Of a stretch of 64,000 nucleotides of DNA, positions 2,391 through 29,897 are shown one piece after another. Origin of the DNA: a virus; the IMG/VR virus record IMGVR_UViG_3300031521_000025, positions 1 to 64,000 of that record. One strand, 5' to 3'. Position 1 is the stretch's first letter. The number at the start of each line of letters is the position of its first letter. The notes beneath the pieces were generated by a model. That model was not told the origin of the DNA, did no database searches, and saw only the letters and a program-made list of their open reading frames with translations. A program made the position numbers and the translations under genes.

Positions 2391-3425
2391 ATGAATAATT
2401 CTCAAAAACTTCAAATATTAATAGAAAAACTTGAAAGTATATCTAATAAGTTAATTATACTTTCAGAAGATGAAAATGTAATTAATAAAGTTAACAAAAA
2501 AGAAGATATATCTGAATTAAAAAGAAAATTGGATTTATTAATTACTATTGATAAAAATGAAATAATCTTTAAAGGAATTTTAGGTTCTCAAGAATTAAAT
2601 ATCTTCAAAACTTATTATAAAAAATACACTATTAATGTTGAAGGCGATGTTTATATAAAAAGTTTAAATTTAAAAAGAATTCCTATTAATTTTGGTTATG
2701 TAAAAGGGAATTTTGATTGTTCTGATAATCAATTATTAACTTTAAAAAACGGACCAATTGCAGTATCTGGTATTTATAATTGCAGTCATAATCGTTTAGA
2801 ATCTTTAGAATATAGTCCTAAAAAACTTAATAGCAGTTTTTTATGTATGTATAATAGCTTGTTAACTTTAAAAGGATGTACTAATATAATTCCTGGAGTT
2901 TTAAATTGCTCTTTTAATGAATTATCATCTCTTGAAGGATGCGCAAGCAGTATAGGTAAAGATTTTTATTGTCATCATAATAAATTAAAAAGCTTATCTG
3001 GAGGACCACAGCAAGTAGGAATGTCTTACGAATGTCATAATAACAGTTTATTGTCTTTGACAGGAAGCCCTAGTGAAATTAATACAGATTTTAATTGTTC
3101 ATACAACCAATTAACTTCTTTAAAAAACGGACCTCAAAAGGTAAGAATAGATTTCAATTGCTCGTATAACAAATTAACTTCTTTAATCGGTTGTCCACAA
3201 AACATAGGAGATTTTTTTGATTGCTCTAACAATCAATTAATAAATCTAAAAGGAGGTCCAACTTATGTTGGAAATTATTATTCTTGTGCGAAAAATAACA
3301 TTAATTCTTTGGAAGGTATTTCGAAAAAAATAAATGGAGATTTTTGGTGTAATGATAATAGCAAAGTTTTTTCTAAAGAAGAAGTAAAACTAAAAAGTGC
3401 TATTTCTGGAAAAATTATTAGTTAA
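2391..3425 (+). CDS. LRR-like 21-residue repeat protein with capsid-targeting-like tag
   Basis: A 344-aa protein. Residues 5-26 are the shared tag (LQILIEKLESIS followed by NKLIILSE), ending in L24-S25-E26. From about residue 104 the protein is built of ten consecutive 21-residue repeats with the pattern (F/Y)xCSxNxLxSLxGxPxxVxxx. Leucines recur at fixed positions, there is an invariant N, and most repeats have Cys at position 3. This resembles the leucine-rich-repeat-like solenoids found in phage and effector proteins, which normally bind other proteins. A tagged LRR-like protein fits a role as a head-packaged, injected host-interacting factor; that is inference. The gene overlaps the 3' end of the convergent nuclease gene by four bases. 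Confidence 0.85.
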   Translation: MNNSQKLQILIEKLESISNKLIILSEDENVINKVNKKEDISELKRKLDLLITIDKNEIIFKGILGSQELNIFKTYYKKYTINVEGDVYIKSLNLKRIPINFGYVKGNFDCSDNQLLTLKNGPIAVSGIYNCSHNRLESLEYSPKKLNSSFLCMYNSLLTLKGCTNIIPGVLNCSFNELSSLEGCASSIGKDFYCHHNKLKSLSGGPQQVGMSYECHNNSLLSLTGSPSEINTDFNCSYNQLTSLKNGPQKVRIDFNCSYNKLTSLIGCPQNIGDFFDCSNNQLINLKGGPTYVGNYYSCAKNNINSLEGISKKINGDFWCNDNSKVFSKEEVKLKSAISGKIIS

Positions 3426-4081
3426 ATTTTTTCAATATATAATTGTTTTCCTTTTTGTTTGATTTTATAATTTGTAATCACTCCTTTTTTGATATATTTT
3501 TTTATACATCCTTGAGCGGAAGAAATATTTGAGTAATGATGGTCGATTTCTTTAAAAAGATCAGATAATTTATATTCTGTTTTATCTTTCATAAAATCAT
3601 TTATATTCGCGATTGTTTTTTTGTAAACTGTAAAGTATTCAGATTTAGCATTTCCAGCTTTTGACTTTTTCTGTTCTTCAAACAAAGGCGGTAGTTTAAA
3701 CTTAGGGTTAATTTCAGATTCTGTTAACATTTCTACATTACCATTTTCTGAAACTTCAAAAATCCCTACACCTAGTTTTTGACAAACATAAACAGCAAAT
3801 CTTCTTGATTTTACTGGTCTTCTTTTAGGTTTAGGAACTCCAATGTAAACTTTTTTTGCAAAAGCTTTCCATCTAAATGCTTGTTCTATTACTTTTAAAC
3901 TTAAAGTTGTTTTCACTTCAATTACAAATGCATCTACTATAACATCTTTTTCTTTTTTTACAAAATAGCAATCACATCTAATTGCTCCACCTGTACCTGA
4001 TTTGCTTACTTCTTTATAACAAGTAAGGTTTTTGTTTTCAAAATAAGTTACAATTTTTTTTGCAAGTACAGTTTCTTTCAT
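3422..4081 (-). CDS. Putative PD-(D/E)XK-fold nuclease
   Basis: A 219-aa protein. Around residues 33-75 it has RCDCYFV, then FVIEVKTTLSLKVIEQAFRW. That is the D...(E)xK plus downstream Q/W pattern of restriction-endonuclease-like nucleases (D37, E55, K57). After an alpha/beta core that includes VYIGVPKPKRRP, the C-terminal 80 residues look like a small winged-helix domain (YKLSDLFKEIDHHYSNISSAQGCIKKYIKKGVITNYKI). Likely a DNA nuclease or DNA-binding protein; substrate unknown. It is transcribed leftward from a divergent region that contains an exact promoter-like element on the minus strand (4095-4104). The nuclease call is by motif only. Confidence 0.7.
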   Translation of the reverse strand: MKETVLAKKIVTYFENKNLTCYKEVSKSGTGGAIRCDCYFVKKEKDVIVDAFVIEVKTTLSLKVIEQAFRWKAFAKKVYIGVPKPKRRPVKSRRFAVYVCQKLGVGIFEVSENGNVEMLTESEINPKFKLPPLFEEQKKSKAGNAKSEYFTVYKKTIANINDFMKDKTEYKLSDLFKEIDHHYSNISSAQGCIKKYIKKGVITNYKIKQKGKQLYIEKI

Positions 4082-4275: not shown

Positions 4276-4938
4276 ATGAATAAACAAGAGAAAATACATA
4301 TGTTAAAAGAGCGTCTAGAGCTTGTAAGTAGTAAAAAAGTTATTCTTAAAGAAGTAAACGAAGGGAAGTATAAATTTGGATGCGCAATGTTGTATTTTGA
4401 CTTTCCTGAATTAAAAGATTTTCAAAAAAAAATATCAACAGATGATATTTATAATAAACCAGGATTCGGACTTGAAACTGAACCTCATTTAACTTTATTA
4501 TATGGTTTTCATTATAAAGAAACAAATAGTGAAGAAGTATTTAAAGAAATTCTAAAAACTAAACTTCCACAATTGCTTTTACATAATGTTTCTTCTTTTA
4601 ACAATAAAGATTTTGATGTACTTAAATTTGATTGCGAACAACAAGTAGGTAGAGGAATATATTCAAAGGAAAAAGATCCTTTGTTTAAAATTAATAAAGA
4701 TTTAACATTAAACTTTTCTTATACGTCAGATTTTCCTGATTATCATCCACACTCTACTATAGCTTATCTTAATTCAGGTACAGCAAAAAAATATATTGAA
4801 ATGTTTAAAGAAGAGTTTTTTACAGTTAATCCTTATAAAATTGTTTATTCGGAACCAATTGATAATGGAAATAAAACTAAAAAGTTTGAACATATTTTAT
4901 CAAAAGAGGAAAAATTACCGAAAACTATAATAAAATAA
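4276..4938 (+). CDS. 2H phosphoesterase-like protein with capsid-targeting-like tag
   Basis: A 220-aa protein. The first 26 residues are the shared tag (IHMLKERLELVS then SKKVILKE), ending in L24-K25-E26. The rest has the two signature motifs of the 2H phosphoesterase fold (LigT/cyclic phosphodiesterase/2'-5' RNA ligase-like): H71-L72-T73 in EPHLTLLYGFHY and H159-S160-T161 in HPHSTIAYL, about 88 residues apart as usual. 2H enzymes cleave or form 2',3'-, 2',5'- or cyclic phosphodiester bonds; phage members include Acb1-type anti-CBASS enzymes that destroy cyclic oligonucleotide signals. Whether this one acts on cyclic nucleotides or RNA ends cannot be told from sequence. The tag would deliver it with the DNA, which would suit an early anti-defence role. 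The terminase gene begins two bases after its stop. Confidence 0.8.
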   Translation: MNKQEKIHMLKERLELVSSKKVILKEVNEGKYKFGCAMLYFDFPELKDFQKKISTDDIYNKPGFGLETEPHLTLLYGFHYKETNSEEVFKEILKTKLPQLLLHNVSSFNNKDFDVLKFDCEQQVGRGIYSKEKDPLFKINKDLTLNFSYTSDFPDYHPHSTIAYLNSGTAKKYIEMFKEEFFTVNPYKIVYSEPIDNGNKTKKFEHILSKEEKLPKTIIK

Positions 4939-4940
4939 TT

Positions 4941-5567
4941 ATGCTGACTTTAGAATATTTAGGAACTTTAGATGATAGAACTAGAACAGAAGTAGTTCTC
5001 AAAGAATATATTAAGTGTATTAGAGATCCTTTATATACAATTAAAAATTATTTTCCTATTTCAGACCCTGCTACTGGTCTTGAATCTTTATTTAATCCTT
5101 ATCCTTATCAAGAAAGAGCAATAAAAAGTTTTGAAGAGTTTAGTTATAATTTAACTATGAAAACAAGACAAACAGGCTTAACAACTGTTTCTCAAGCTTA
5201 TGTTGCATGGTATATGGCAACAAAAAAGAAAAAAGTCGTAAATGCATTAGCACAAGAGAAAAAAACATCTCGTAAGTTTTTAAAAGGAGTTAGAGAGTTT
5301 TTAGATGGAGCAAGAAAAAAAGCTCCATGGTTAATACCTGATTATATTGTTGGTAATGATGCTAAAGAATCTTTTGGGTTAGTTAACGGTAGTACTATCT
5401 TAGCAGAAGCTAATAAACCTGATGCTTGTCGTGGAGATACAATATCACTTCTATGTATAGATGAATCCATTTCATTTGATACTAACGTATTAATACGAAA
5501 TAAATCAAGCAAAGCTTTAAGTAAAGTAGAAATAGGTAAAATATTTTATGATGAAAGTTATAAATAG
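4941..5567 (+). CDS. Terminase large subunit, N-terminal half fused to N-intein
   Basis: The product is 208 aa. Residues 1-175 are the N-terminal part of a T4 gp17-like packaging ATPase: adenine-binding-type NPYPYQERA, a Walker A variant MKTRQTGLTT (73-82, lacking the usual Lys as in many TerL proteins) and a Walker B LLCIDE ending at residue 175. Translation then enters an intein: residues 176-208 start SISFDTNVLI, matching block A of inteins (compare the metagenomic AceL-TerL intein, also with DT at positions 5-6). The gene stops after only 33 intein residues. The rest of the intein and of the terminase is encoded from 6515. The two products must associate and trans-splice to make active terminase. 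The gene is coupled to the upstream 2H gene. Confidence 0.93.
   Translation: MLTLEYLGTLDDRTRTEVVLKEYIKCIRDPLYTIKNYFPISDPATGLESLFNPYPYQERAIKSFEEFSYNLTMKTRQTGLTTVSQAYVAWYMATKKKKVVNALAQEKKTSRKFLKGVREFLDGARKKAPWLIPDYIVGNDAKESFGLVNGSTILAEANKPDACRGDTISLLCIDESISFDTNVLIRNKSSKALSKVEIGKIFYDESYK
5466..5567 (+). other. N-intein of a split terminase intein (33 aa)
   Basis: It starts with Ser1 directly after the Walker B Glu and ends at the TAG at 5565. The very short N-part, carrying block A only, is the atypical split-intein arrangement. The segment is rich in Lys, whereas the start of the C-part is acidic, which would favour association. Confidence 0.88.
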
Positions 5568-5578
5568 TTGATAATCCT

Positions 5579-5588
5579 TAGTATTTAA
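5579..5588 (+). promoter_or_regulatory. Variant late promoter element TAGTATTTAA
   Basis: Variant of the recurrent element, 18 bases before the ATG at 5607. It could give the two genes lying between the terminase halves, and the C-half, their own transcript. Confidence 0.35.
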
Positions 5589-5606
5589 AACAAAAAACAA
5601 ATTGTA

Positions 5607-5831
5607 ATGAAATTAGAAATATTTAAATGCGGAACTCCAGTAGTTATTATTGTAAGTAAACAAAAAGCAACAATTTCTATGGTTCAAATAAAATATGATC
5701 AAATTCTATATGAATGTTCCTTTTACAATCCAGAAATAAATTCTCACCAAACATTATTATTACATAGTGAAGAGTTTTCTATTAGACAAGGAGAAGGTAA
5801 AAATATAATTGGTTTTAAATATAAAATATAA
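5607..5831 (+). CDS. Small hypothetical protein inside the split terminase locus
   Basis: A 74-aa, all-beta looking protein (FKCGTPVVIIVSKQKATISM, then YDQILYECSFY) that resembles small SH3-like phage ORFs of unknown function. It sits between the two halves of the split terminase, a place where fractured phage genes often carry a homing endonuclease; no nuclease motif is visible here. It is separated from the N-half by 39 bases and from the following membrane protein by five. Function unknown. Confidence 0.75.
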   Translation: MKLEIFKCGTPVVIIVSKQKATISMVQIKYDQILYECSFYNPEINSHQTLLLHSEEFSIRQGEGKNIIGFKYKI

Positions 5832-5836
5832 AAAAA

Positions 5837-6514
5837 ATGAATTTAGCGTTATTAACTTCTATAGGAAAGTTTGTTTTAAATCCCAAAGTTTACAAAACAA
5901 TAGGGATAATAATAATTGTTTTAATGTTTTTGTATCTTTTTATTGATAGAAACAATCAAGAAGCTAATGCTATTAGACAAACAGCAAATGTCGCTGCTTT
6001 AAATAAACAATCAAAAGAATACAAAGATAAGTTAGATCAAATAGTAATTGAAAACGGCGTTTTAATTCTTTCAAAAAAAGAAATTAAAGAATCTAGCTCA
6101 AAAGAGATAGAATTTATGAAAAAACAATTAGAGGTAAAAGATATTAAAATTAGAAATTTAATATCAATGAATACTGGTTCTATAAAAACCCATAGTCAAG
6201 GAAGTGTTGTTTTACGTGATACTATTACTCAACATGATACTGTTGTAAGTAAAATTGATACTTTAATGTTTGGTGTATGGACTAATCCTTGGGATAGTAT
6301 TAATTTTAAATTAAAGATTCCTGAGTTCAAGCTTGATTTTGATTTATATACTAATGATACTATTTTTTGCGCAGTTTATAGATATAAAGAAAAACCTTGG
6401 AAAATTAAAAATATTCTCCCTTGGAATTTTAGAGAATGGGTTTATGGAGGAAGTGGTAATTTAACAAGACCTAATTCTAAAGTAAATTTAAAGTTTATTA
6501 ATAAAAAAGACTAA
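5837..6514 (+). CDS. Single-pass membrane protein, possible inner-membrane spanin-like
   Basis: A 225-aa protein. One transmembrane segment is clear at about residues 20-36 (TIGIIIIVLMFLYLFI), with a short N-terminal tail. It is followed by an alpha-helical, coiled-coil-like region (about 40-110) and a beta-rich C-terminal domain with Trp residues (VWTNPWDSINF, EKPWKIKNILPWNFREW). The layout resembles inner-membrane proteins of Bacteroidota phages that are sometimes proposed as i-spanins; that assignment is weak. It lies between the halves of the terminase, and its TAA stop is immediately followed, in the same frame, by the GTG start of the C-half, so the two are probably translationally coupled. 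Confidence 0.75.
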   Translation: MNLALLTSIGKFVLNPKVYKTIGIIIIVLMFLYLFIDRNNQEANAIRQTANVAALNKQSKEYKDKLDQIVIENGVLILSKKEIKESSSKEIEFMKKQLEVKDIKIRNLISMNTGSIKTHSQGSVVLRDTITQHDTVVSKIDTLMFGVWTNPWDSINFKLKIPEFKLDFDLYTNDTIFCAVYRYKEKPWKIKNILPWNFREWVYGGSGNLTRPNSKVNLKFINKKD

Positions 6515-6955
6515 GTGGATTATAACGAACTTCAAAAATATATAGAAGAAAATAATGTTGACTTACCTGAAGATGGTGATGAAATAGATTTTAATGTTAT
6601 CGATATAGATAATGTTAATGCTCAAGATTCAAAAGAAATAAAAAAAATATCTGAATGGGAAGTTTTAACACCAACCGGATGGAGTGACTTTTCTTCAATA
6701 AAAAAAATAACAAAACCCTATTGTTACGAAATTAAACTTTCTAATGGAAAAGAATTGACAGGCTCTCCTTATCATAAAATTAAAATGTTGGATGATTCTT
6801 TTCAATATTTAAAGTTTGTAAAAAAAGGAGATTTATTAGTTTCTGGAAGTAAAATAATTTCTAAAAAGAAAATAGTAAAAGAAATTGAATTATTTGACTT
6901 GTTAGATGTAGAGAAAGGTAGCGAATATTTTACAAACGAAATAGTGTCAAGCAAC
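6515..6955 (+). other. C-intein of the split terminase intein (147 aa)
   Basis: An acidic 45-residue leader is followed by a fold matching AceL-TerL: EWEVLTPTGWSDFSSIKK, then block B-like LTGSPYHKIKM, block F-like ELFDLLDVEKGSEYF and block G IVSSN with Cys as the first C-extein residue. The penultimate residue is Ser instead of the usual His. Confidence 0.88.
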
Positions 6956-9496
6956 TGCGCGGCTATCTCATGGATGACTGATATTTGGGCATCGGCAGGT
7001 CTTACTTTAACTAGATCTCAAGGGAGTTGTATCATAATTTCTTGTGTTACAGATGATACTTATGTCTTTACAGATAATGGTATTCAACAAATAAAAGATT
7101 TTATTCCAGAAGATATTGATTGTTCAAAGAAACAAACATGCGAAATAGAGCAATATAATGTTAGAGGAAAAGATATTAAACGCCAAGGTAGTCTTTTTCA
7201 TGTTAATGGTTATTGTGATACAAGAAAAATTACAACAAGTTTTAACTCTGTTGAAAGTAGTAACGAACATAAATATTGGTCATATAAAAATGGAGAATAT
7301 CAATGGACTAAAGCTAAAGAATTAGAAGTAGGAGATTGGTTATGTCACCAATATGGAACAGATTGTTGGGGGAATAATGATGATATTTCCGATTTTGTTA
7401 ATAAGTTAGGAAATGGTAGAAAAGAAGTTAATATTCCAAACTTTTTAACACCTGATTGGTGTTATTTTCTAGGTTTATATATAACAAAAGGGTCGTCGAG
7501 TCATAAGAGTATAACTATATCTTGTGGAGATGGAATTACTGAAATATTTGATAAATTAGGGTTAAGTTACTATAAAAACCCTAGTAATATAGGTGTATCT
7601 TATGAAATTTGCAGAAAAATTTTAATAGAGTTTTTAGAATATTTAGGATTTGATCTTAGTTATACAGCTTCAAAAAAACAAATACCTAAAAGACTAATGT
7701 CTATTAGTAAAGAAAACATGAAAGCTTTACTACAAGGTATATTCGATGGAGATGGTTATTCTACTATAAAAAAGAATAGAGTAGGTATAAATTTAAAATC
7801 ACCTTTGCTTATTGAGCAAATTAGAATTATATTATCTAATTTCGGAATTTTATCTTTGCTATCAATAATTCCGGTAGAAAAAATGAATTCTTATTATAGC
7901 AAAAAAGGAATAGTTCATAGATTTGATTCTCATAATTTAGAAATAGATGGTTTTTTTGCAACAAAGTTTCATGATGAAATAGGATTCAGGTTAGAAAGGA
8001 AGGCTAATACTAGAAAATCAAACAAAGAAGTATTTGCTAGACCAATTCCTAGCGGGATGAAAATTGTAAGAGAATTATGCAAAATAGGAAAAACTTCTGT
8101 AGATACAATTAGAACAAAACACAAAATTTATATTCATTACAATAGTAATCCTGGAAGAGCAAATATAGAAAAATTAATTAATCATATTTCATCGACCAAT
8201 GAAGATTTTTTAAACAATGAAAGAGTAAAAGAAATACAAGATAAAGTTTTAATTGAAAATTCGGTATGGACTCAAATCAAATCTATAGAAGAAAAACAGA
8301 ACTATACTTATGATTTTTCTTTACCTGAAACAAATGATGTAAACTGGTGTCATTCAGTGGTTTACAATTCAATAATCTCCCATAACACACCAAAAGGTAG
8401 CCAAGGATGGTACTTTGACCAGTATACAAACGCTGAAGAAAACGGCTGGAATATAATTGATGCACACTGGACTGAGCATCCGATTTATAACTTAGGTTTA
8501 TATAGATGGAAAATAGATAAAAATCATCCGGATGGAGGCACTTTAGAATTCATGAACGGAGATTCTTGGCCTGATATGACTAATAAAAAAAATGTTCAAC
8601 GTTATAAATGTAAATGCAAAGAGGAATATAATTTTATTAAAGATGGAAAAATAAGAAGTCCATGGTATGATATAGAAGCAAAAAAACTAGGCCCAAGACT
8701 AACTCGTTGTGAATTAGATTGCAGTTTTGCAGGTTCTGGTGGTGAAGTCTTAGATCCAGAAGTTATTAGAGAGCACGAGTTAATTGCGAAAGATATCCCT
8801 CAAATAAATGAAGTTAAAAGTGGCCCTTACAAAAATTACAAACAATACAAACCATATGTTGAAGGGTGTAAATATATTCTTGTTTCTGACGTTGCAACAG
8901 GAGATGGGTCGGATTATTCCACCTTTGTAATCATTAATTTAACTACTTTTGAAATTGTAGCTACTTATAAAGATCAATTTGAAACAACAAAATTTGCAGA
9001 AATAATATTCGAAAAAGCAAAAGAATATGGCAAAGCTTTAGTAATTATAGAACATCAGTTTGGTTTATCTGTTTTGTTAGTGTTAAGAGATTTTTATAAA
9101 TATACTAACATATTTTACTCTACTCTTAAAAAAGATGATCCTACAACTAAAGATAAAAAAAGAAAAATTGGATTTTGGCAATCAGAAAAAACTAGAGCAT
9201 TAGGTGGAGATAAACTTGAAGAAGTTTTAAGAACTAAAGAATTAATTATTCCTTGTACAATGATTATTAATGAAATGTACACATGGGTTTGGAGTAAAAG
9301 AGGAAGAAGAGACCATGCTGAAGGAAAACATGATGACCTACTTATGAGTTTAACAATGGCGTGTTTTTATATATTCTTCATAGAAAGAAAACAAGCTGAC
9401 TATAGAGATGGTATGTTAAAAACAATTGAAAGAAATTTTGTTAACTTAGGAAGCACTTATTCAGATGATAGTTATTTTGATCAATTATTAGAATAA
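6515..9496 (+). CDS. C-intein plus terminase large subunit C-terminal half, with second intein
   Basis: A 993-aa ORF. Residues 1-147 are the C-part of the split intein, ending SSN147 before Cys148. Residues 148-176 (CAAISWMTDIW to CIIIS) continue the terminase just after Walker B, as in T4 gp17. Residues 177-624 are a second, contiguous intein. Residues 625-993 contain the rest of the ATPase (TPKGSQGWYF) and the RNase H-like nuclease: D792 (VSDVATGDGSD), E846 (VIIEHQFG) and H939-D940-D941. Joined to the N-half, mature terminase would be 175+29+369 = 573 aa, close to T4 gp17 (610). GTG at 6515 is the only usual start codon before the intein core; it follows the TAA of the preceding gene directly. 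Terminase drives DNA into proheads and cuts the concatemer. Confidence 0.93.
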   Translation: MDYNELQKYIEENNVDLPEDGDEIDFNVIDIDNVNAQDSKEIKKISEWEVLTPTGWSDFSSIKKITKPYCYEIKLSNGKELTGSPYHKIKMLDDSFQYLKFVKKGDLLVSGSKIISKKKIVKEIELFDLLDVEKGSEYFTNEIVSSNCAAISWMTDIWASAGLTLTRSQGSCIIISCVTDDTYVFTDNGIQQIKDFIPEDIDCSKKQTCEIEQYNVRGKDIKRQGSLFHVNGYCDTRKITTSFNSVESSNEHKYWSYKNGEYQWTKAKELEVGDWLCHQYGTDCWGNNDDISDFVNKLGNGRKEVNIPNFLTPDWCYFLGLYITKGSSSHKSITISCGDGITEIFDKLGLSYYKNPSNIGVSYEICRKILIEFLEYLGFDLSYTASKKQIPKRLMSISKENMKALLQGIFDGDGYSTIKKNRVGINLKSPLLIEQIRIILSNFGILSLLSIIPVEKMNSYYSKKGIVHRFDSHNLEIDGFFATKFHDEIGFRLERKANTRKSNKEVFARPIPSGMKIVRELCKIGKTSVDTIRTKHKIYIHYNSNPGRANIEKLINHISSTNEDFLNNERVKEIQDKVLIENSVWTQIKSIEEKQNYTYDFSLPETNDVNWCHSVVYNSIISHNTPKGSQGWYFDQYTNAEENGWNIIDAHWTEHPIYNLGLYRWKIDKNHPDGGTLEFMNGDSWPDMTNKKNVQRYKCKCKEEYNFIKDGKIRSPWYDIEAKKLGPRLTRCELDCSFAGSGGEVLDPEVIREHELIAKDIPQINEVKSGPYKNYKQYKPYVEGCKYILVSDVATGDGSDYSTFVIINLTTFEIVATYKDQFETTKFAEIIFEKAKEYGKALVIIEHQFGLSVLLVLRDFYKYTNIFYSTLKKDDPTTKDKKRKIGFWQSEKTRALGGDKLEEVLRTKELIIPCTMIINEMYTWVWSKRGRRDHAEGKHDDLLMSLTMACFYIFFIERKQADYRDGMLKTIERNFVNLGSTYSDDSYFDQLLE
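7043..8386 (+). mobile_element. Contiguous LAGLIDADG intein in terminase (448 aa)
   Basis: It begins with Cys177 (CVTDDTYVFTDNGIQQI) and ends SIISHN624 before Thr625. The insertion splits the conserved CIIIS/TPKG motif of terminase. It has block B NEHKYW, and two LAGLIDADG motifs, FLGLYITKG (318-326) and LLQGIFDGDG (ending about 414). The first motif carries Lys325 where the catalytic Asp is normally found, while the second keeps D413, so the homing endonuclease may be inactive even if splicing is intact. Confidence 0.92.
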
Positions 9497-9534
9497 AATA
9501 TTTAGACTTTAAAAAGATAGAAACCAAACTTAAT

Positions 9535-9544
9535 CAATATTTAA
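9535..9544 (+). promoter_or_regulatory. Variant late promoter element CAATATTTAA
   Basis: Variant copy, 14 bases before the ATG at 9559. Confidence 0.3.
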
Positions 9545-9558
9545 AATAAAATATATAA

Positions 9559-10008
9559 ATGGAAATAACATCGCAAAATTATATTAACCCACAATTTGAA
9601 GAACAAAGTTATGTAATTCTTAATATGGTTTTAGCAGCAGCAAAGAGATCAGAGCCAAAGTTAAATACAACAAATAGTTTATCTGAGAAAGATGAAAAGG
9701 TTATGGTTGATTTTGGCGCTAAAGTTTTAAAAGGAAATACAACCGCAGAGTTATATGCAAATAAATTTATTTCTATAGTAGAAAAAATAATAGGTGGAAA
9801 GATTTCTGAAAAAGACTATTTAAAAACTAAAATACAAAATTACATCAAAAGAGATTTTTTAGAAGATAAAAACAATATATTAGAACTTTCATTGTTGAAA
9901 GAAAAACTTGAGAGAATGAGTAAAAAAAAGGTTATAATAGGAGAAGATACAGGTAGTTTGGGGTTTAAAGAAAAAATCAAAACATTGTTTAAAGAAAATT
10001 ATTGTTAG
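9559..10008 (+). CDS. Hypothetical protein with C-terminal tag motif
   Basis: A 149-aa protein. Its first 100 residues are alpha-helical and not recognised. The shared tag is present but near the C-terminus: LLKEKLERMS then KKKVIIGE, ending I127-G128-E129, leaving a 20-residue tail that includes GFKEKIKTLFKENY. In other proteins the tag starts the chain or divides two domains, so this gene may be a fusion whose downstream domain has been lost, or the tag may also work from this end. It stands alone between the terminase and a short gene. Function unknown. Confidence 0.75.
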   Translation: MEITSQNYINPQFEEQSYVILNMVLAAAKRSEPKLNTTNSLSEKDEKVMVDFGAKVLKGNTTAELYANKFISIVEKIIGGKISEKDYLKTKIQNYIKRDFLEDKNNILELSLLKEKLERMSKKKVIIGEDTGSLGFKEKIKTLFKENYC

Positions 10009-10335: not shown

Positions 10336-10668
10336 TTAATATTTTAAATGTTCTATTTGTTTTTGAAAGAAAATATTTTCATTTGCTAATACTTTAAAAG
10401 CTCTTTCATAATTTTCACATAATTTTAAAAAATCATTTGCTTCTTTATTTGTCAAATAAAACCATTCTCCTCTTTTGTGTGATCCGAAATATCTTTTATG
10501 TAAATTGGTTTCTATTTTAGTGGAAAATTCAGATTTAAATTTATTTACAATAACTAAAGTTTCACTATTACCTGTTTGTAAAGTTTTTATTCTTTTTTCA
10601 GGTTTAACACCAACCCCAATTTTGTATTCTTCAGTTCCTTCTTTATTAATTAAATAAACATATCTCAT
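10336..10668 (-). CDS. GIY-YIG-type (T5orf172/MUG113) nuclease-like protein
   Basis: A 110-aa protein. The start YVYLINKEG, followed by YKIGVGVKPEKRIKTLQTGN, the helix with IETNLHKRYF, and GEWFYLT match the T5orf172/MUG113 branch of GIY-YIG domains: YVY/KIG, R for catalysis, E for metal. These stand-alone domains are common in phages and can be homing-type or DNA-repair nucleases. Here the domain covers the whole protein, so DNA targeting must come from elsewhere. It is next to the divergent/convergent small-gene cluster downstream of the intein-rich terminase, in keeping with the many selfish elements of the window. Confidence 0.82.
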   Translation of the reverse strand: MRYVYLINKEGTEEYKIGVGVKPEKRIKTLQTGNSETLVIVNKFKSEFSTKIETNLHKRYFGSHKRGEWFYLTNKEANDFLKLCENYERAFKVLANENIFFQKQIEHLKY

Positions 10669-26938: not shown

Positions 26939-27550
26939 ATGTTTAATTCACCAAGTTATAACTTTACAATACAAAACATCAGTGATAACAAATCTGATGT
27001 TTTAATTTTATGGACTTCAAGTAGTTTACTTGCAGGTGATGAAAGTTTTGTGAAAATTCATAACGAAGCAGGCTCTACTGTAAGAAAAGAAGTCTATAAT
27101 ATTAAATATGACTATAATACAAATAATTTTAAATTTGGAGATAATATTATTACGAATGCAGGTTTTTTAAAAACAGATAAGCTTGTTCACAGTGTTTTGC
27201 CAAATTATAAAATCATTTCTGATAAAAAACAAAGACTAGCTTTATTAAAAACAACATTGTATAATATAAACGAAACATTAAAATATTTTGAAAAAACTAA
27301 TTACAAGGTACTCAATATTACTTTTCTTCCTATATCAACAAAAATTTACGGAGAGGTTGATAAAGAAACAATTAATGTGTTTTTATCTTGCATTATAGAT
27401 TTTTTTAAAGATTTTCATTCTATTACTATAATATTTGATGATGAAAAAGATAGACAACAATATTTTAACGTATTTAAAAGAAAAAAAATTTATTTTTTAC
27501 AAAAAATTATAATATATGCAAAGTATTTCGGAATTAGTATTAAAATATAA
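26939..27550 (+). CDS. Macro-domain (ADP-ribose-binding) protein
   Basis: A 203-aa protein. The pattern of a macro domain can be followed: SDVLILWTSSSLLAGDESF (strand and ADP-ribose-binding loop; the usual Asn is replaced), IHNEAGSTVRKEV, NAGFLKTDKLVHSVLPNY (the G-x-L...H-x-V-x-P segment), LLKTTLYNINETLKYFE and ITFLPISTKIYG (the phosphate-loop region). Macro domains bind or remove ADP-ribose and related metabolites; in phages they could counter ADP-ribosylating or NAD-derived defence signals, or process ADP-ribose 1''-phosphate after tRNA repair. Activity is not proved by sequence. It overlaps the helicase start by 35 bases. Confidence 0.72.
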   Translation: MFNSPSYNFTIQNISDNKSDVLILWTSSSLLAGDESFVKIHNEAGSTVRKEVYNIKYDYNTNNFKFGDNIITNAGFLKTDKLVHSVLPNYKIISDKKQRLALLKTTLYNINETLKYFEKTNYKVLNITFLPISTKIYGEVDKETINVFLSCIIDFFKDFHSITIIFDDEKDRQQYFNVFKRKKIYFLQKIIIYAKYFGISIKI

Positions 27551-29897
27551 AGGACCTCACCCTTATTTAAAGATTTTAAGAAAAAAAATCGAAGACGGTT
27601 TCGAATTAGACGAAATGCAAATAAATATGGCAAGCAAAATGTTAGTATCGGTTGCTGCTATAAAAAAAGATAAAACCTTACTTCCTTTAGAGGAAATAAA
27701 AGATTTCAATGTAGATTGGAATAAATATTCAAAAAGACCGCCTTATAATCATCAAAAAATCGCAACTAATTGGCTTTTAAATAAAAATAAGGCAATTTTA
27801 GCAGATGATATGGGGCTTGGGAAGCGAATTGCAAATGATGTTCCTGTTTTAACTCCAGATGGTTGGGTGCTTCACGGATCTTTAAAAGTAGGTGATTATG
27901 TAATTGGATCAGATGGAAAAAAAACTAAAGTATTAGCAACTTATCCAAGTAATTCAGATAATTATTATACTATAACTTTTACTGATGGAACAAAAGTTGA
28001 ATCTTGCGAAAATCATTTATGGGCGGTTACAACATTAAATCGAAAAAAAAACAATTCTGGATATATAAATTTAACCATAAAACAAATGTTAGATAGAAAT
28101 CTAACATTAGAAAATGGAGAATGTAGCTATTATAAACTTAATGGAAATTGCAAATGGTATATTCCTATTGTAAAACCAGTAGAGTTTACTCCAAAACCTA
28201 TTGAACTTGATCCTTATTTAGTTGGAATGATATCTGATATCAAACAATTTATTGCAAAAAAATATAAATATAATTCTATTGATGTTAGACTTAGCTTACT
28301 ACAAGGAATATTAGATACTGAAAAAAGCACTTGTTTAGAAAATGGGTTAATTAAATATTACAGTAAATCAAAAGAATTTTTAAGTGATGTTAAAGAATTA
28401 GTACAATCTTTAGGTGGAACAGCTAAAGAAGAGCAATGTTTTTTGTTAATTAACTTACCTGAATGTATTGTTCCTTTTAATATACAAAGTAAAATTGAAG
28501 ATTTTTCTAAAAAAATCAGACATCAACCTTCAAGAGGTATAAAAAAGATTGAGTTTTCAAGAGAAACAAAAGGGCAATGCATAAAAGTAGATGCAGAAGA
28601 TTCTTTATATGTTATAGATAATTATGTTGTGACTCACAATACCCAGTCAATAGTAATGTCTATTCTTGAAAAGGATGAAAAAACCATTATCATTTGCCCA
28701 AAAACATTAAGGTTAAATTGGAAAATTGAACTTTCATGCTTTACTGATGAAAAGAAAATATCTATAATTGATAACAAATGGGTTGATAATAAAATTGTTA
28801 TTATTAATTATGATAAAATTCATAAATATGTAAACGAGATTGTAAAAGCCAAATTCAAATTAGTTGTTTCAGACGAATCTCATTATGTTAAAAACGGTAC
28901 AAAATCAAGAAGAGGTAAAGTTTTCAACAAAATAGCGAATAAATCAAAAGTTACTTGGTTAATTACAGGAACTCCTATGGCAAACAAACCTATGGATTTT
29001 TTTAATTTATTGAAAATTTGCAAACATGAATTAGGAAAAAATAAAGGTGATTTTGGAAGAAGATATTGTGATGGAAAACAAACCGATTTTGGTTGGGATT
29101 ATAGTGGAGCTTCAAACTTAAAAGATTTACATTATAGAACGCAAGATGTAATGCTTAGAAGATTAACAAACGAAGTTATCGAACTTCCAGATAAGCAAAG
29201 AATTCCATATTATTTAGAGTTTACATCATCTCAATCAAAAGCTTATTTAAAAGCAGTAGAAGATAAGTTTCAAGATATTTATAATAATGTAAGCAACCCT
29301 GATTCAGAACATTATCAAAAGAATTTATTTTCAGGAGAAGGGTTTATTGAACTTTCTGCAAAAAGAATGTTTTGTGCTTTAGAAAAACTTAAAGATGGGT
29401 CTTTAATAGAAATATTAGACAACTTCATTAGTCAAGGACATAAAATTGTAATATTCACAAACTTTACTGCAGTTATAAACTTTATAAAAGAAACATATGG
29501 TAAAAAATGTGTTATTTTAGATGGTAGTGTTAAAGAAAAACAAAGACAACAAAATATTGAAAAATTTCAAACTGATTCTTCTATAGATATTTGTGCTTGC
29601 AACTATATAGTAGGAGCTGAAGGAACTACTTTAACTTCGGCAACAATTATGATTATGAATGATTTGCCTTTTTCTCCTCACTTGGTACTACAAGCAGAAA
29701 AGCGTATTCATAGAATTGGTCAAAAAAATAAAGTACAAATATATTTTCCAATATATAAAAACACAAAAGACGAAGAAATATTTGAAGCTATAAAGCAAAA
29801 AATGGAATATATAAATACAGCGATTGATAACATAGATGGTGTAGATTTCAAATCTGAAGGGGATTTGATTAAATCATTAATAAAATCTAAGAAATGA
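27516..29897 (+). CDS. SNF2-family helicase interrupted by a class 3 intein
   Basis: A 793-aa precursor. Host protein motifs: PYNHQKIATNWLL (Q-like), Walker A ADDMGLGK/T split by the intein, IIICPKTLRLNWKIEL (Ia), VVSDESHYVKN (II, DESH), TWLITGTPMANKP (III), IVIFTNF (IV), GAEGTTLTSA and RIHRIGQKNK (V-VI). Without the 272-aa intein it is a 521-aa single-chain SNF2/SMARCAL1-like ATPase, probably acting in phage replication-fork remodelling or recombination like T4 UvsW. It starts inside the macro-domain gene and its TGA overlaps the ATG of the next gene (ATGA). Confidence 0.92.
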   Translation: MQSISELVLKYKGPHPYLKILRKKIEDGFELDEMQINMASKMLVSVAAIKKDKTLLPLEEIKDFNVDWNKYSKRPPYNHQKIATNWLLNKNKAILADDMGLGKRIANDVPVLTPDGWVLHGSLKVGDYVIGSDGKKTKVLATYPSNSDNYYTITFTDGTKVESCENHLWAVTTLNRKKNNSGYINLTIKQMLDRNLTLENGECSYYKLNGNCKWYIPIVKPVEFTPKPIELDPYLVGMISDIKQFIAKKYKYNSIDVRLSLLQGILDTEKSTCLENGLIKYYSKSKEFLSDVKELVQSLGGTAKEEQCFLLINLPECIVPFNIQSKIEDFSKKIRHQPSRGIKKIEFSRETKGQCIKVDAEDSLYVIDNYVVTHNTQSIVMSILEKDEKTIIICPKTLRLNWKIELSCFTDEKKISIIDNKWVDNKIVIINYDKIHKYVNEIVKAKFKLVVSDESHYVKNGTKSRRGKVFNKIANKSKVTWLITGTPMANKPMDFFNLLKICKHELGKNKGDFGRRYCDGKQTDFGWDYSGASNLKDLHYRTQDVMLRRLTNEVIELPDKQRIPYYLEFTSSQSKAYLKAVEDKFQDIYNNVSNPDSEHYQKNLFSGEGFIELSAKRMFCALEKLKDGSLIEILDNFISQGHKIVIFTNFTAVINFIKETYGKKCVILDGSVKEKQRQQNIEKFQTDSSIDICACNYIVGAEGTTLTSATIMIMNDLPFSPHLVLQAEKRIHRIGQKNKVQIYFPIYKNTKDEEIFEAIKQKMEYINTAIDNIDGVDFKSEGDLIKSLIKSKK
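27825..28640 (+). mobile_element. Class 3 intein with degenerate LAGLIDADG region (272 aa)
   Basis: It spans residues 104-375, between GLGK and TQSIV. Residue 1 is Arg (RIANDVPVLTPDGW), not a nucleophile. The class 3 signature is present: Trp in block B (NHLWAV, W169), Cys in block F (GQCIKVDAEDSLY, C355) and Thr in block G (VVTHN, T373), with Thr as the first C-extein residue. The middle retains weak LAGLIDADG traces (YLVGMISDIK, LLQGILDTEKS) and is too short for a full endonuclease. Confidence 0.88.

Follow-up and report, generated by a model that had tools for sequence, protein, structure and literature searches.

A phage terminase encoded in two genes, with a predicted Ser1/Cys+1 split intein at the break and a second intein in cis

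The window analyzed here is 64,000 nucleotides of viral DNA, positions 1–64,000 of the IMG/VR record IMGVR_UViG_3300031521_000025, whose full length of 111,457 bases (G000) may be incomplete. Within it, the large terminase subunit (TerL), the T4-type motor that packages phage DNA, is interrupted directly after the Walker B glutamate and encoded by two separated genes. From sequence and structural models, we consider it very likely that these genes yield two precursors joined by protein trans-splicing into a terminase of 573 residues. The original prediction had placed a natural split intein at DE/CA and a cis intein at IS/TPKG in this one protein (slashes mark insertion sites), and the layout, the homology, and the gapless join of the exteins bear this out. 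Still, the earlier interpretation was only partly supported as a whole, being right in kind while over-stating its novelty: the arrangement itself is known and widespread, and it is the Ser1/Cys+1 pair that is rarely seen.

The upstream gene, TerL-N (4941–5567, plus strand, as is the whole locus), encodes 208 residues. Its 175-residue extein (4941–5465) covers the ATPase lobe as far as the Asp-Glu of Walker B (PHROG terminase large subunit, E=6e-29; 57% identity to the contiguous TerL of viral contig L005), and its last 33 residues (5466–5564, stop codon at 5565–5567) are the N-terminal fragment of the split intein (IntN), such that the protein ends in LLCIDE followed by SISFDTNVLIRNKSSKALSKVEIGKIFYDESYK and the stop. 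Exactly 947 bases later (5568–6514), TerL-C (6515–9496) starts at a GTG codon in a different frame and encodes 993 residues: 147 of intein, 29 of extein, 448 of a second intein, and 369 of extein. The first of these segments, the C-terminal fragment (IntC), consists of a 40-residue acidic extension (6515–6634) and a 107-residue core (6635–6955) that contains block B (SPYH) and block F (FDLLDVE) and ends VSSN, with the junction reading IVSSN/CAAISW. The middle extein (6956–7042) runs from CAAISW, which begins with Cys+1, to CIIIS. Intein 2 (7043–8386, residues 177–624 of TerL-C) ends at IISHN/TPKG, and the C-extein (8387–9493, stop codon at 9494–9496) includes the nuclease domain (PHROG terminase, 3e-13; PDB 3c6a, terminase large subunit, E=1e-9). 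The earlier figure of a 947-base gap is exact, and those of a 33-residue N-part, a 147-aa C-part ending SSN/C, and a 448-aa second intein agree as well.

When both inteins are removed, the joined TerL has 573 residues, the mature length that had been predicted. It aligns end to end with the intein-free contiguous terminases of L006 (57% identity), L003 (53%), and L005 (52%; E=0 throughout), with zero gaps at DE/CA or IS/TP. These three read IDE-VAAI and IS-TPKG and so show the two insertion sites unoccupied. The gapless join also bears on the possibility that two unrelated pieces were brought together in assembly, or that the gene is decaying in a defective phage, as might be supposed of a metagenomic record with no stated completeness. 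We regard this as extremely improbable. Contig L002, from another metagenome (IMGVR 3300030339), has the same layout with intact frames and is 99.93% identical over 13.56 kb, so the locus did not arise as a chimera in a single assembly, an error the original prediction had named as a possible refutation; a 7-base difference near 5834 lies between the two TerL genes. With the same split also present in cultured phages, described below, the idea of an artefact or a dead gene is largely contradicted. Joining at the mRNA level by a group I or II intron is similarly hard to credit: phage terL genes with introns exist, as in ICP1 (PMC10448857), but no intron or other RNA family was found in 4900–9600 with Rfam at E≤1, both sides of the break code for intein parts, and the upstream half ends at its own stop while the downstream half has its own start in another frame. 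The split TerL, with intein parts on both sides, is confirmed as real.

By sequence and modeled fold, intein 1 belongs to the atypically split TerL inteins of the Cat/AceL/GOS kind. A phmmer search of solved structures with the TerL-C protein alone retrieved CatC (PDB 6dsl_B, E=5e-11), which was engineered as a consensus of terminase inteins with the atypical split. The AlphaFold model of the C-fragment has a mean predicted local distance difference test score (pLDDT) of 86, and 6dsl is its top Foldseek match (E=2.9e-9). A profile of 24 C-fragment relatives, from which the window was excluded, found TerL-C at E=6e-37 as the sole match among the window’s 1,453 open reading frames (ORFs). The host gene is a terminase by PHROG, and the short IntN (33 residues, where the range of this kind is about 25–37) ends after the first helix. 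Two contiguous relatives at the very same site, L088 and that of phage SRB7757, run through the split point and thereby map the split. An IntN profile built from DE/C-site relatives ranked the 33-residue fragment (Ser1, codon TCC; block A, FDTNV) best of all 1,453 ORFs, and the fragment aligns with the Cys1 N-fragments of both split and contiguous relatives; at 33 residues it is too short for a search against the PDB, which gave no match. One alignment (A1) included an AceL sequence. The 6dsl search, the profile, and the Foldseek tests did not use A1, although many relatives in the profile and Foldseek tests had been found through it. The earlier label of an AceL-type intein fits the fold and the split position and fails for the insertion site, which is DE/CA (Walker B) here and FE/CEFLG in the AceL-type relatives that were read; several TerL sites occur. 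AceL itself presumably sits at FE/CEFLG, given the near-identity of L133 to the AceL sequence.

The residues expected of a class 1 intein are present: Ser1, DTNV (DTxV), the block B His (SPYH), the block F Asp (FDLLDVE), the terminal Asn, and Cys+1 (SSN/C). A class 3 mechanism was considered for intein 1 and rejected, as the F:4 Cys of the WCT triplet is absent and F:4 is Asp. The +1 position is Cys, compared to Val in the nearest intein-free relatives (L003–L006), which fits acquisition with, or selection for, splicing. Intein 1 has a single His, that of block B, and therefore lacks an NX-type His, a lack also reported for the split GOS-TerL intein.

We infer the association of the halves, the chemistry, and the order of steps as follows. 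The 33-residue IntN would dock on the 147-residue IntC, an S2-type split after the first helix, to complete the HINT fold. Ser1 would then attack the Glu-Ser bond in an N-O shift to form an oxoester, which Cys+1 would take over by transesterification to a thioester. The terminal Asn would cyclize without the usual penultimate His, and an S-N shift would leave Glu and Cys joined, restoring Walker B and the ATPase core. Intein 2 would excise itself at IS/TP by a Cys1/Asn/Thr+1 route.

Several observations weigh against trans-splicing. The penultimate residue is Ser rather than the His that is usual, though non-obligatory, in class 1 inteins. The IntN profile score is weak (E=0.04–0.13); the profile's expectation of Cys1 is probably part of the reason, and the fragment is also short. 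Engineering Ser1/Cys+1 into AceL-TerL rendered it inactive (PMC11766414), and the activity of the present intein therefore cannot be assumed. The opposite charges noted in the original prediction do hold (+2 for the 33-residue N-part, −11 for the extension of the C-part), but the extension is absent from relatives, and much of it is modeled with low confidence (pLDDT of 75, 76, 61, and 54 in successive blocks of 10 residues). One might guess that it captures the basic N-fragment electrostatically, and it could also hinder docking. Finally, no second TerL was found in the 111-kb record, only this one in pieces, and thus no contiguous terminase of the sort that had been named as a refutation; however, as the record may be incomplete, an intact copy elsewhere is conceivable. 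The inactive AceL-TerL variant and the missing penultimate His would also suit an intein whose halves never ligate, with Ser1 marking a dead intein, the intein parts serving as a docking clamp, and the terminase working as a non-covalent complex. There is a precedent in a phage ribonucleotide reductase that, according to PMC10448857, which cites it, is split by a homing endonuclease gene and works as two peptides. We judge this improbable here, given that Cys+1 stands where intein-free kin have Val, that the terminal Asn, the His of block B, and the Asp of block F have all been retained, that the cut falls inside the Walker B region, and that the Ser1/Cys+1 pair is able to splice in GOS-TerL.

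Both Pfam and the modeled fold identify intein 2 as an ordinary LAGLIDADG intein of class 1. It begins with Cys1, matches Intein_splicing (3e-12) and LAGLIDADG_3 (4e-8), and yields an AF2 model (pLDDT 82) whose Foldseek match is the TliVMA intein (E=1e-21). Same-site (IS/TP) homologues occur in L096–L098 at 39% identity, such that Pfam, AF2, Foldseek, and these homologues all point to a HINT domain with LAGLIDADG at the TerL coupling motif. This is a known class of site for LAGLIDADG cis inteins, as in mycobacteriophage TerL6-f (PMC5050341).

To place intein 1 among its kin, we used a pattern scan of viral contigs that returned 152 C-fragment relatives, the best 80 of which were read. TerL inteins of this family, either split or contiguous, are present at about 60 viral loci, many of them near copies; no relative was found by pattern in bacterial genomes. 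At the DE/C site, the intein is contiguous in L088, L089, L090, L093, L107, L143, and phage SRB7757, and split in L087, L091, L092, L094, L095, L096–L098, L099, L100, and T4-like cultured phages. Residue 1 is Cys in every relative with a readable N-half and Ser in this phage only. When strict DNA patterns were used to look for further Ser1 TerL inteins, the two for IDE/S returned only this phage and EFE/S gave none, although such patterns demand exact junction residues and may therefore miss other cases. The closest intein among the relatives read is that of L087 (46% identity; tree support 94/87), which is split at the same site and differs by Cys1, an SHN ending, and a gene between its halves that matches a TnsA-like nuclease (Pfam, 2.5e-6). 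The intein tree is otherwise poorly resolved except for a few pairs.

These comparisons bear on what had been called new. The penultimate Ser also occurs in L088–L090 (cis, same site), L096–L098 (split, same site), L120, L159, and Campylobacter phage CP21. The 33-residue N-part is typical, as eight relatives (L087, L091, L092, L094, L095, L098, L099, and L100) have 31–34 residues and GOS-TerL has 37. Nor is the stacked cis intein unique: L096–L098 carry the same pair at the same two sites, a split DE/C intein ending SSN/C and then a LAGLIDADG cis intein at IS/TP, and CP21, L094, and L120 are also stacked. L096–L098 differ in having Cys1, halves only about 20 bases apart without an intervening gene, and a second intein that ends in Gln. 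Because the split-plus-cis anatomy recurs in relatives, it is known, and Ser1 is the odd feature. Even Ser1 had a precedent, as PMC11766414 and PMC10189870 describe the Ser1/Cys+1 pair for GOS-TerL. As side observations, the TerL C-gene of L096 (817–4884) contains a third, contiguous intein at HDDL/C besides the split and coupling-motif inteins, and the TerL-type C-fragments of L114, L122, L124, L127, L132, and L154 seemingly end in Gln (HQ/C, KQ/C, or SQ/C) rather than Asn.

GOS-TerL resembles the present intein, by its published description, in being atypically split in a phage-type terminase, in having Ser1 and Cys+1, and in lacking an NX-type His. Its fragments are 37 (IntN) and 115 (IntC) residues, compared to 33 and 147 here, and the present locus has a penultimate Ser, an acidic extension, and a cis intein 29 residues downstream. 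AceL-TerL and Cat-TerL (PDB 6dsl) share the fold and S2-type split and differ by Cys1 and a penultimate His. Among cultured phages, the split also lies at DE/CA in Yersinia TG1, Salmonella SEA1, Pseudomonas PspYZU05, and Escherichia HY03, each with a single gene separating the halves. Shigella JK32 and Shewanella Thanatos-2 have the same site and split region, with the intervening frame fused to the N-half. All six have Cys1 and an SHN ending, with N-fragments of about 41–43 residues where separate. In Campylobacter phages CP21 and IBB_35, too, a single TerL holds several inteins, including a split one. In CP21, the DE/C intein ends VSN/C, like the penultimate Ser here, but is contiguous. In our set, CP21 is L027, and we observed that its three terminase inteins, one split around a GIY-YIG-type gene (by inspection), are annotated only as pieces. 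The IBB_35 TerL was described as containing an intein plus an intron (PMC3322345).

Two genes lie between the TerL halves, and neither has a nuclease match in Pfam, PHROG, or PADLOC, so the endonuclease of a fractured-gene arrangement is absent from this position, a point that the original prediction had missed. The first (5607–5831) encodes 74 residues, with no match of note in those databases and none in phages. The second (5837–6514) encodes a 225-residue DUF6549 protein (PF20186, E=4e-14), with a hydrophobic N-terminal stretch followed by a charged region. It is present in G000 and the near-identical contig and absent from the records of the intein-free L003–L006, which are short; no relative was found in viral contigs beyond this phage, apart from one weak phage match. 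Among other split relatives, the intervening genes of L092, L095, L099, and L100 resemble that of L087 by sequence inspection only, and L091, L094, and L098 have almost nothing between the halves (gaps of 45–133 bases to the conserved core). The terminase gene would have been fractured in evolution, with many relatives appearing to keep a nuclease gene between the halves. Here, such a gene probably once stood there and has since been lost, with two non-nuclease genes now in its place. A T5orf172/MUG113 (GIY-YIG-like) gene on the minus strand, 840 bases past TerL-C (10336–10668; PF13455, 4e-11; PF10544, 8e-9), is a candidate collaborating endonuclease, although any link to the intein is speculation. 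Elsewhere near terminase genes, the gene preceding TerL-N (4276–4938) has weak matches to 2'-5' RNA ligase (3e-5) and the anti-CBASS protein Acb1 (1e-3), both under curated cut-offs, and in L004 a GIY-YIG-like gene (2802–3476) sits inserted right where the terminase gene begins, with the MLTLD start repeated.

Three more intein-split genes lie in the record, outside the window and hence beyond the view of the original prediction. The class II ribonucleotide reductase (RNR) is encoded by 65117–66277 and 67071–68813 (G000 65117–68813, equal to L179:2118–5814; IntN 98 and IntC 42 residues). Its Pfam barrel profile is broken at 212/212 and continuous over the join, and the intervening 265-residue ORF has only a weak DUF790 match. 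A DnaB-like helicase is encoded by 73479–74810 and 76069–76518 (G000 73479–76518, equal to L179:10480–13519; IntN 91, IntC 44), around a 418-residue ORF with a DUF559-type nuclease match. DNA polymerase III alpha (93775–95361 and 95549–98029; G000 93775–98029, equal to L181:1276–5530; IntN 95, IntC 43) is split at PDID/C, with profile positions 106/110 at the break. One frame of the 187 bases between its halves codes for ~60 residues that match, in a small local search (E=1.5e-6), the end of the ORF that immediately precedes the C-half of L131's split terminase; the 187 bases look like the remnant of a nuclease gene. The genome seems to hold stages of one process: an intervening ORF, nuclease-like in DnaB, in the helicase and RNR genes; a short nuclease-like remnant in polymerase III alpha; and other genes instead in TerL. 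Several fractured genes already occur in one cultured phage, Yersinia phage TG1, whose terminase, RecA-like, and RNR genes are each annotated as two pieces separated by another gene; two of the three intervening genes carry the annotation of homing endonuclease. The intein split was seen directly for the terminase; matches to intein C-termini suggest that the other two are split likewise.

Two further loci appear to hold inteins. Within the window, an SNF2-type helicase (27516–29897) carries a 272-residue intein-like insert at GLGK/T (27825–28640) that starts with Arg; by inspection it resembles class 3 inteins in having HLW, a Cys in block F, and THN/T, and the scan gave no Pfam intein match. 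The portal protein of L006 (9792–15305), whose terminase is intein-free, appears to hold three contiguous inteins.

What is unusual in this phage is Ser1, the lack of a nuclease gene between the TerL halves, the 40-residue acidic extension, and the presence of four fractured genes. One broader, rather unlikely reading is that the phage depends on four trans-splicing reactions, for its terminase, ribonucleotide reductase, replicative helicase, and replicative polymerase, and that the terminase one has been domesticated, with the nuclease lost, phage genes filling the gap, and a change of chemistry toward a His-poor Ser1/Cys+1 route that may be a slow packaging timer. As GOS-TerL was the sole natural Ser1/Cys+1 case named in 2023 (PMC10189870), the present intein is apparently the second. 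Inteins of this type perform a transesterification once thought unfavorable, and a second case, with a Cys1 sister at 46% identity in L087 and no penultimate His, would let the residues that enable this chemistry be asked about, making the Ser1/Cys+1 TerL intein a candidate tool.

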